Part shown: one piece after another, positions 58,463 through 61,158 of the stretch | How positions within the stretch are numbered: the stretch's first letter is position 1 | How the letters are laid out: each line of letters opens with the position of its first letter | Assembly (NCBI RefSeq): GCF_023555055.1 | Contig: NZ_JAMJPL010000003.1 | Span: 372,001-436,000 of the forward strand | DNA length: 64,000 nucleotides | Direction: 5' to 3' | Source: Marinobacter sp. ATCH36 | GTDB taxonomy: Bacteria > Pseudomonadota > Gammaproteobacteria > Pseudomonadales > Oleiphilaceae | Position numbers and translations under genes: made by a program | Notes under the pieces: model-generated | What the model was told of the DNA's origin: nothing | Database searches by the model: none | Seen by the model: only the letters and a program-made list of their open reading frames with translations

Positions 58463-59254
58463 TCACCTCTGTGAGGGCTCGTCATCCCGCACGCAGTCGA
58501 AGTCCTCCTCCGGCAGTGGCGGCATTTCACCATTCTGATACTCGCTGTTAACTTTTCTCAGTGCCTTGCACATGTTTTCAATACGGTCATCCACGACATG
58601 CATGTGGTCCAGCAGGCTACGCATGGCACGGGCAACCGGGTCCGGCATTTCCTCGGTAACGCCGTAAGCATCGAAGCCCATGCGCTCTTCCATTTCTTTA
58701 CGGCGGTCACTGTCCTCGTCTTTACGTTTGGCAACCACACGGCCCGGAATCCCGACTACGGTCGCTCCGGCGGGTACTGCTTTGGTGACCACCGAGTTGG
58801 AACCGATCTTGGCACCCTCTCCTACTTCGAAGGGCCCCAGGATCTTGGCGCCAGCACCCACCACAACGCCATTGCCCAACGTCGGGTGTCGTTTTCCTTT
58901 GTTCCAGCTGGTTCCGCCCAGAGTTACGCCCTGGTACAGCGTCACGTCGTCACCAATGATCGTGGTTTCACCAATAACGACACCCATGCCGTGATCGATG
59001 AAAAAGCGACGGCCAATCGTCGCACCAGGGTGAATTTCAATCCCGGTAAGCCAACGGGCAAGCGTGGAGAAGGTACGCGCCAGCCACTTCAGGCCCAGAT
59101 TCCATAGCCAATGCGAAAACCGGTGGCACAGGAGCGCATGAAGTCCTGGATAATTCGTCAGAACCTCAAAGGTGTTACGAGCTGCGGGATCACGATGAAA
59201 CACACTGTTTACATCTTCCCTTAAACGTTCAAACATAACCCTATTCCTGCTCAC
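58463..59254 (-). CDS. cysE: Serine O-acetyltransferase
   Basis: Makes O-acetylserine, the precursor for cysteine synthesis. The 263-residue protein has an N-terminal helical domain ([20 protein letters not shown]). The left-handed parallel beta helix of hexapeptide repeats follows at about 70-190 ([40 protein letters not shown]). The tail is acidic. It overlaps trmJ by 14 bases. Supply of cysteine beside the IscS desulfurase is a conserved neighbourhood. Confidence 0.96.
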
Positions 59255-60095
59255 CGGCTGCTGAGCCAGCCTTTAAAGTATTTGATCCGGATCGGTCCGT
59301 ACCGGCGGATTTCTGCACAGCGGTCAGGACACCCCGGAGAATATTGATTTCTGTCTGATCCAGTTTCGCTCTCTGAAAAAGACGGCGCAACCGGGTCATC
59401 AACAATCCGGGTTTCTCGCGGCGATGGAAATCAACATCAACCAGCACCTGCTCAAGATGCTCGAAGAAACCCTCGACGTCTCTTACCGGTGCCGGAGGAA
59501 CATCCCAGCCAGCATCCCCCGGCGCAGTCATGGGCTTGAGATATGGGCTGCCATCGCCACCTTCAAGCCCCCTCAGATAATGCATGCGCAATTCATAACA
59601 CATCACCTGAACCGCCATGGACAGATTCAACGAACTGTAGTCCGGGTTCGACGGAATATGAATGTGAAAGTGGCAACGCTGCAGCTCTTCGTTACTCAGG
59701 CCATGATTTTCCCGTCCGAATACCACCGCAACCGGACCAGCTCCTGAGTGCTCCGACGCCATGGCGGCAGCGTCAGGCGGCGCGATAACGGGCCAGGGCA
59801 CCTTGCGACCCCGGGCGCTGGTGCCCATAACGCAGACACAGTCCTCAATAGCTTCGTCAAGGCTGTTAACAACCCGGGCATTATCCAGTACATCCGAAGC
59901 TCCCGCCGCCCGCGCGTAAGAGGTTTCATCAGGAAACGACACCGGATTAACCAACCAGAGACTGCCCAGCGCCATATTTTTCATGGCCCTCGCTACGGCT
60001 CCAATATTGCCGGAATGAGACGTTTCAACCAGAACAATCCTGATCTGGTCATCAAAGGTGTCGGTGCCCTCCTGGGGCATCGCGGACTTGTGCAT
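59241..60095 (-). CDS. trmJ: tRNA (cytidine/uridine-2'-O)-methyltransferase TrmJ
   Basis: SPOUT methyltransferase that modifies position 32 of several tRNAs. The 284-residue protein has an N-terminal catalytic domain with [35 protein letters not shown] and the knot motif [19 protein letters not shown]-terminal helical domain follows ([11 protein letters not shown]). The start used is the ATG at 60095; MPQEGTD five codons in is an alternative. It is divergent from suhB, as in related genomes. Confidence 0.93.
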
Positions 60096-60283: not shown

Positions 60284-61093
60284 ATGAACACTCAGATGCA
60301 ACCAGCTATTAAAATGGCCCTGCGCGTCGCGCGTCAGGGGTCCGACTATCTGAAAGCACACTTCGAACGCCAGGAACCGAATGGCGACACCGAGGACCGC
60401 CGCAAGCAACTCGAGCGGGTCGAGCAGTCTGTTTACGACAATTTTTCCGAACAGCTCGAAAAGTCCTACAAGGACCACATGATCGCACCGCTGAATGAAG
60501 CGGATGCTGACGGTAACGACAAGAGCTGGCACATATTCCCGGTGCTCGGGCGCGAAAACTTTCTGCGTGGTATTCCTGATTTCGCATTGGCGCTGCTGCA
60601 GAAGAAAAACAACCGCACCGAAAACCTGCTGCTCATCAACCCAGTCACCGGTGAAGAATATTCTGCCAGTCGCGGCCATGGTGCGGCTCTGAATAGCCGG
60701 CGCGTGCGCACCAGCGAAGTCAAGCACGCCGACCGCGCCGCCGTGGTCAGCAACCTTCTGGATCAGACCCGACATGGTGACGACCCGCTGATGTGGGGCG
60801 AGATGGCATCATTGCTGGCCCGGGACAGCAGCATGTTCCGCACGGCCGGCTGTGTTGCGCTGGATATTGCCAGAGTATCTTCAGGGCATCTGGACGCTGC
60901 CGTTATTTTCCGTCCTGAGCCCGCAGATCTTGCCATTGGCGTCACCCTGGCTCTGGAATCCGGCGCCCTGACCGGTGATTTCTCGGGCAACCCGTCAACC
61001 GAGCGGGCCAAACAGCTTATTGTCGCCAACCCCAAGCTGTTCCGGGAAGTACTGAAAACCCTGCACCCCTTCCGGGGCCGCCTGCCACGCTGA
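60284..61093 (+). CDS. suhB: SuhB homologue lacking the catalytic metal sites (probable pseudoenzyme)
   Basis: By fold and position this is the SuhB orthologue (divergent from trmJ, 269 residues from the ATG at 60284). The inositol monophosphatase active-site motifs are gone. The EESG region reads IAPLNEADADG (67-77). DPLDGTTNF reads FPVLGRENF (85-93), losing both metal-binding aspartates. RPWDFAAG reads PEPADLAIG (211-219), where one Asp remains. Surrounding structure is preserved: GIPDFALALL, SASRGHGAALN, MFRTAGCVALDIARVSSGHLD. In E. coli SuhB also serves in rRNA transcription antitermination with NusA, independent of catalysis. That is the plausible retained role, but it is inference. Confidence 0.85.
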   Translation: MNTQMQPAIKMALRVARQGSDYLKAHFERQEPNGDTEDRRKQLERVEQSVYDNFSEQLEKSYKDHMIAPLNEADADGNDKSWHIFPVLGRENFLRGIPDFALALLQKKNNRTENLLLINPVTGEEYSASRGHGAALNSRRVRTSEVKHADRAAVVSNLLDQTRHGDDPLMWGEMASLLARDSSMFRTAGCVALDIARVSSGHLDAAVIFRPEPADLAIGVTLALESGALTGDFSGNPSTERAKQLIVANPKLFREVLKTLHPFRGRLPR

Positions 61094-61106
61094 ACCGGCC
61101 AGGCAC

Positions 61107-61143
61107 AAAAAAGCCGCAACACCTGAGGGGTTGCGGCTTTTTT
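61107..61143. terminator. Bidirectional rho-independent terminator between suhB and secF
   Basis: A long stem (AAAAAAGCCGCAAC with GTTGCGGCTTTTTT) and an A-run/T-run on either side lie 13 bases past the suhB stop and 15 bases past the convergent secF stop. Confidence 0.93.
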
Positions 61144-61158
61144 GTGGCTGCCACCGAA

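Follow-up and report, generated by a model that had tools for sequence, protein, structure and literature searches.

A SuhB orthologue in Marinobacter that has lost most of its inositol monophosphatase metal site and is probably kept for a non-catalytic role

SuhB of Escherichia coli binds NusA AR2 and boxA-containing RNA, is required for stable NusB/E integration, and contacts NusA-AR2 through K251 and L254 (PMC6614801). Two studies further state that inositol monophosphatase (IMPase) activity is dispensable for the function of E. coli SuhB in the cell (PMC6614801, PMC4807359). In E. coli numbering, which is used throughout, metal is bound by the side chains of E67, D84, D87 and D212 (see PMC5516325), and RR followed by GSAAL is described as typical of SuhB (PMC5516325). 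For the Mycobacterium tuberculosis protein, dimerisation is reported to be driven by Mg2+ (PMC2080633). In Pseudomonas aeruginosa SuhB (8wip, 9j90 and 8wdq, the title of the last naming a complex with inositol-1-phosphate), the sequence retains the EE, DPLDGTTN and WD motifs. In the literature covered, with most subscription journals outside its scope, we found no account of SuhB losing its active site naturally and under selection; a text on Marinobacter names a HisN of M. psychrophilus. The protein described here would represent a selected pseudoenzyme branch of SuhB, a known moonlighting protein.

The window analysed here is the whole 64,000-nucleotide stretch of Marinobacter sp. ATCH36 (contig NZ_JAMJPL010000003.1, positions 372,001 to 436,000). 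It carries a suhB orthologue with the following features, which are listed together with a second IMPase gene located elsewhere in the same genome.

59241..60095, minus strand: trmJ orthologue, divergent to suhB, 284-codon ORF
60296..61093, plus strand: suhB orthologue, 265 aa, catalytically dead by sequence (ORF, Pfam, PDB match, alignment, model)
60476..60514, plus strand: replaced E67/E68 motif HMIAPLNEADADG, shorter by two residues than in E. coli (alignment; pN/pS 0.286)
60524..60562, plus strand: replaced D84/D87/T89 motif SWHIFPVLGRENF, against QWVIDPLDGTTNF in E. coli (alignment; pN/pS 0.059)
60650..60715, plus strand: scaffold stretch GEEYSASRGHGAALNSRRVRTS, shared by live and dead SuhB (pN/pS 0.069)
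60908..60940, plus strand: W211/D212 motif, Trp lost, ligand Asp (60926-60928) kept (pN/pS 0.173)
61013..61063, plus strand: C-terminal stretch matching the E. coli NusA-AR2 contact (alignment; pN/pS 0.096)
61104..61146, no strand assigned: terminator hairpin between convergent suhB and secF (-28.9 kcal/mol, z -7.1)
L001:1417-2241 on contig C11 of the same genome, minus strand: second IMPase with intact ligands, 274 aa

The initial annotation had described an unbroken gene in a conserved divergent pair with trmJ, aligning with SuhB over its whole length and followed by a strong terminator, and our analysis bears out each of these points. The ORF at 60284-61093 is uninterrupted, and its likely start is the ATG at 60296 (MQPAIKM...), four codons downstream of 60284, because a stop lies directly upstream of that Met in two Marinobacter copies. 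The divergent trmJ(-)/suhB(+) arrangement is also found in E. coli MG1655; as E. coli TrmJ has 246 codons, the true trmJ start may lie inside the 284-codon frame. The strongly folding hairpin probably serves both suhB and secF, since it is placed between these convergent genes, and it is not listed in a simple consensus terminator scan. PF00459 matches residues 5-257 of the protein (E 8.4e-19), and the best NCBIfam model, NF008027, matches residues 5-260 at 101.8 bits, far under its equivalog cut-off of 332 bits. The nearest solved relatives by sequence are the Pseudomonas and E. coli SuhB proteins, with a Pseudomonas 'Nus factor SuhB' as top PDB match (E 4.9e-34). Full-length best matches and the trmJ neighbour, as in E. 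coli, place the gene in the SuhB orthologous group, and the Pfam match and the predicted model give it the fold of the PF00459 enzymes. The SuhB-typical RR and GSAAL are altered to FRTAGCVALD, in which the first Arg is kept and the second lost.

The window protein shares with E. coli SuhB the position beside trmJ, the fold, the ASRG-GA-LN-R-R stretch, and a basic residue and a Leu at the NusA-AR2 contact. It differs in the replacement of E67, D84, D87, T89, T90, R184 and W211, and overall identity is about 24%. Aligned with E. coli SuhB, D84 is replaced by Phe, D87 by Leu, T89 by Arg and T90 by Glu, while E67 falls in a gap or opposite Ala depending on the alignment, with no acidic residue taking its place in any of them. 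One of four metal ligands (D212) is thus kept. The proposal that all three metal motifs had been replaced holds for EE and DPLDGTTN, which the window protein lacks relative to P. aeruginosa SuhB, but not for the change of WD to AD, where ligand D212 persists and only Trp211 is gone. Across 95 distinct Marinobacter proteins, the states at the four positions are -FLD in 76, -FLE in 8, -FMD in 8, -FID in 2 and -YLE in 1. The predicted structure is confident and SuhB-like, matching end to end, and the ASRG-GA-LN-R-R stretch is conserved, in agreement with the scaffold retention noted at the outset. Relocation of the metal ligands elsewhere in the protein finds no support; the sequence alignments give no sign of it and agree with the end-to-end structural match, and no charged site has become newly conserved among SuhB proteins lacking the ligands.

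The loss reaches well beyond the genus. We refer to SuhB proteins with such sites as dead and to those with intact ligands as live. In the window's own GTDB family (f1, 16 genera), none of 133 distinct SuhB proteins carries E67, D84, D87 and D212; the dead site extends across the 16 genera, and a divergent trmJ adjoins suhB in all 133 cases. Elsewhere in the order, every protein sampled is likewise dead in f6 (7 proteins), f7 (2), f26 (3), f36 (5), f37 (6), f38 (5) and f44 (6), as are both proteins of genus g93 in f39. The initial annotation understated the scope of the pseudoenzyme, as many families share the dead site. A divergent trmJ lies beside 35 of 36 dead proteins outside f1; for the other, L267, none was found in the examined stretch. 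Ligands are intact in all 73 sampled proteins of 35 other families and the rest of f39, and likewise in E. coli. These family counts are not a random sample, because other families of the order contributed one to few proteins each and low-scoring families were deliberately given additional loci. Left out were a frameshifted copy (L185), one at a contig end (L186), a truncated f12 copy with three visible ligands intact (L276; as its family's one copy it also removes f12 from the dead/live family counts), and presumed paralogues lacking a trmJ neighbour (L286, L287, L309-L311 and L313-L315). Among 169 dead proteins, 41 keep none of the four ligands, 122 keep one and 6 keep two. All 19 proteins sampled from f26, f36, f38 and f44 have Arg in place of E67, as does one of six from f37 (L190); this Arg is perhaps a stand-in for the lost metal charge, arising convergently in f44.

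Several side observations accompany this survey. Genus g93, whose genomes G264 and G314 have dead SuhB, is a lineage with a NusA only 41% identical to that of E. coli, and RpoB of G264 sits on an extremely long branch. No SuhB was found, even by profile, in G274 (f13), G275 (f14), or G321 and G342 (f9), through either gaps in the assemblies or true loss, and the best matches of the two f9 genomes are HisN-like. In f15, the best IMPase matches (L286 and L287) have intact ligands and no trmJ neighbour.

A comparison of 60 thinned live with 56 thinned dead proteins indicates which parts of SuhB were given up. Of 84 sites conserved in at least 90% of live proteins, 24 are kept by less than 30% of the dead ones, including K34, D44, E67, E68, D84, D87, T89, T90, R184, E205 and W211, as well as sites with no known catalytic role such as I103, A104 and Y194. 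R184 is invariant in the live set and kept by none of the 56 dead proteins; for D212 retention is 41%. W81, ten sites of E124-R141, E222, G224 and K251 are among those that persist in 70% or more of the dead set. Median retention is 0.125 for eight core catalytic sites versus 0.69 for the rest (Mann-Whitney p 2e-4, the sites not being fully independent); a ninth, position 86, was too little conserved among live proteins to be counted. Between families, median SuhB identity is 28% for dead and 57% for live proteins at an equal TrmJ identity of 51%, a faster divergence that is also compatible with some loosening of constraint on the Nus role.

Within Marinobacter, the gene is retained and constrained. 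Searching 124 genomes, with identical proteins counted once to give the 95 distinct ones, we found a full-length suhB match in 121, two of them flagged with a stop upstream of the Met. In the other three, suhB is frameshifted (G001, the sole such case among the 124), cut by a contig end (G064), or represented by paralogues only (G077, 82% complete). The frameshifted copy in G001 (L185) reflects either faulty assembly or recent gene loss. A Marinobacter-type suhB (L073, 80% identical to the window protein) is also present in a MAG titled Halomonas sp. SAT58, which is probably mislabelled. By the Nei-Gojobori method, over 380 pairs with 0.1<dS<1 among the 95 sequences, the median dN/dS of suhB is 0.070 (5-95%: 0.015-0.28), near the 0.064 of trmJ over 364 of the same pairs. 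Against 0.158 for the whole gene, the replacement D84/D87/T89 motif is the lowest in pN/pS of six stretches in Marinobacter and is itself strongly constrained, while the replaced E67 motif is loose.

This constraint is what one would look for if the pocket had taken on new chemistry or ligand sensing, with SWHIFPVLGRENF as a new active or regulatory site. We consider this improbable, since the replacement motifs vary between genera and families, as expected of loss and not of one common new function, two of the ligand positions in Marinobacter are hydrophobic (Phe and Leu), and none of the five sites newly conserved among the 56 thinned dead proteins is charged. Weak residual phosphatase activity, working through D212 and non-canonical residues, is very unlikely. 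Position 212 is acidic in all 95 distinct Marinobacter proteins (Asp in the window protein and 86 of the 95, Glu in the other nine), as this idea needs, but E67, D84 and D87 have been lost along with K34, D44, T89 and W211 in most dead proteins, and none of the 169 has Asp or Glu at all four ligand positions. A decaying gene or a sequence artefact, for which the lone frameshifted copy might speak, has a negligible probability and is rejected, because full-length matches occur in 121 of 124 genomes at a dN/dS of 0.07, the dead site spans 16 genera, and the same kind of replacement in 95 distinct proteins excludes sequencing error in practice.

The distribution of dead SuhB makes two or more losses of catalysis likely, because the RpoB+NusA, RpoB and TrmJ trees need at least two, three and at least four changes, respectively. 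In the RpoB+NusA tree of 26 taxa, the sampled f1, f6, f7, f26, f37 and f38 form one group (86/98) and f44 stands with live families (88/97), while the placement of f36 is not settled; two to three changes are needed in bootstraps, the relevant forks are unstarred, and the starred branches alone force one. An RpoB-only tree that includes g93, on a very long branch (4.26), needs three, of which starred branches force one. A quick TrmJ tree places g93 beside three live proteins of f39 (99, starred), and one of the changes required rests on a live long-branch protein (L230) placed inside f1. Loss rather than gain is assumed, since E. coli and most families have intact ligands.

If Marinobacter SuhB is no longer an enzyme, another protein could supply the activity. 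As the initial annotation had suggested looking for, the same genome has a second candidate. It encodes two other PF00459 proteins, CysQ (L002, above the TIGR01331 cut-off) and L001, both with all four ligands. L001 shares PF00459 with the window protein and carries an RR-GSAALD motif; unlike the window protein, its metal ligands are all intact. It scores below all equivalog cut-offs and is closest to IMPase, which makes it a possible carrier of the enzymatic function. Relatives with intact ligands (45-84% identity) are found in f1, f6, f7, f26, f36, f38 and f44 genomes. In a quick tree, proteins of the L001 type cluster together, separate from catalytic SuhB (SH-aLRT 89, with long branches elsewhere in the tree), and an origin by recent SuhB duplication is accordingly unsupported.

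Genomes with dead SuhB also tend to carry more IMPase-like genes. At least two matches to the window protein occur in 33 of 41 genomes of dead groups versus 9 of 132 in live families, or, by family majority, in 6 of 8 dead versus 2 of 37 live (p 9e-5, related genomes not being independent). Dead or live status was assigned by family or genus. Of 194 genomes, 21 were left out: 7 from f15, 8 from f1 (each with two matches), 5 that had no match, and G213. In the single f12 genome SuhB is split, so that it counts as two matches. When searched with profile A1, 17 of 23 dead and none of 7 live genomes show a second match scoring over 120 bits, a threshold of our own choosing, 30 of 40 genomes being used and ten without a clear SuhB left out. 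The second matches L293 and L294 are not of the L001 type, and the one examined in g93 of f39 (L322, G314) is HisN-like. A strict rule that dead SuhB occurs only with a second IMPase is broken by f37 (second match in one of six genomes), G210, G319 and G187; the two are associated, though not without exceptions.

The partners of the Nus role are present in the genome of the window. In the window protein K251 is Arg (61043-61045) and L254 is Leu (61052-61054) by alignment. Position 251 is K or R in 56 of 56 dead and 57 of 60 live thinned proteins, and position 254 is aliphatic in 50 of 56 and 59 of 60, although it is Leu in only 54% of the dead set. A NusA whose C-terminal part can be aligned with AR2 was found in the genome of the window and in all 29 others searched. 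The 12-mer TGCTCTTTAACA, which we take to be the boxA core, occurs once in the genome of the window, in the 16S-23S spacer, with no match in the reversed control. Eight single-contig Marinobacter genomes have 3-4 copies each (reversed control 0-1), located between 16S and 23S at all 11 places examined of 26. Outside Marinobacter the picture for boxA is mixed: in eight genomes of other genera and families, the exact core is absent from three (G132, G154 and G197), and only 4 of 9 examined places, of 18, adjoin rRNA.

We therefore favour, at a probability of roughly 0.8, a Nus factor SuhB orthologue that has lost its IMPase chemistry and would be maintained for a role outside catalysis. The originally proposed selected pseudoenzyme, as opposed to a decaying gene, is supported by the low dN/dS, the retention across the genus, the loss of preferentially catalytic sites while the scaffold stayed, a confident model resembling SuhB, and a distinct IMPase in the same genome whose ligands are intact. 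Orthology, the retained NusA-contact chemistry, and the presence of NusA and boxA would fit a Nus role split from the enzyme role. The dead protein would join the rRNA antitermination complex by binding NusA AR2 and boxA-containing RNA as E. coli SuhB does, and would help load NusB/E without phosphatase chemistry, while the IMPase job, if needed, could be done by the paralogue L001 elsewhere in the genome. As Mg2+ drives dimerisation of the M. tuberculosis protein, a dead site should free assembly from active-site Mg2+, and Mg2+ independence is a prediction of this mechanism. A wider proposal, to which we give somewhat less than even odds, is that the two jobs of SuhB were separated more than once: where an IMPase paralogue was at hand, SuhB may have shed catalysis and turned into a Nus factor only, independent of Mg2+, with the place of the metal taken by hydrophobic residues and a short deletion in f1 or by an Arg at E67, perhaps mimicking the metal charge.

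The relevance of the phosphatase to the role of SuhB in rRNA transcription has so far been argued from E. coli mutants. A dead enzyme under strong purifying selection in a large bacterial group would serve as a natural experiment on that question, and suggests that the non-enzymatic job of SuhB is what Marinobacter and related cells need. Dead SuhBs would also be ready-made separation-of-function proteins and would show the surface that selection still protects, and the annotation of many 'inositol-1-monophosphatases' would need correction.
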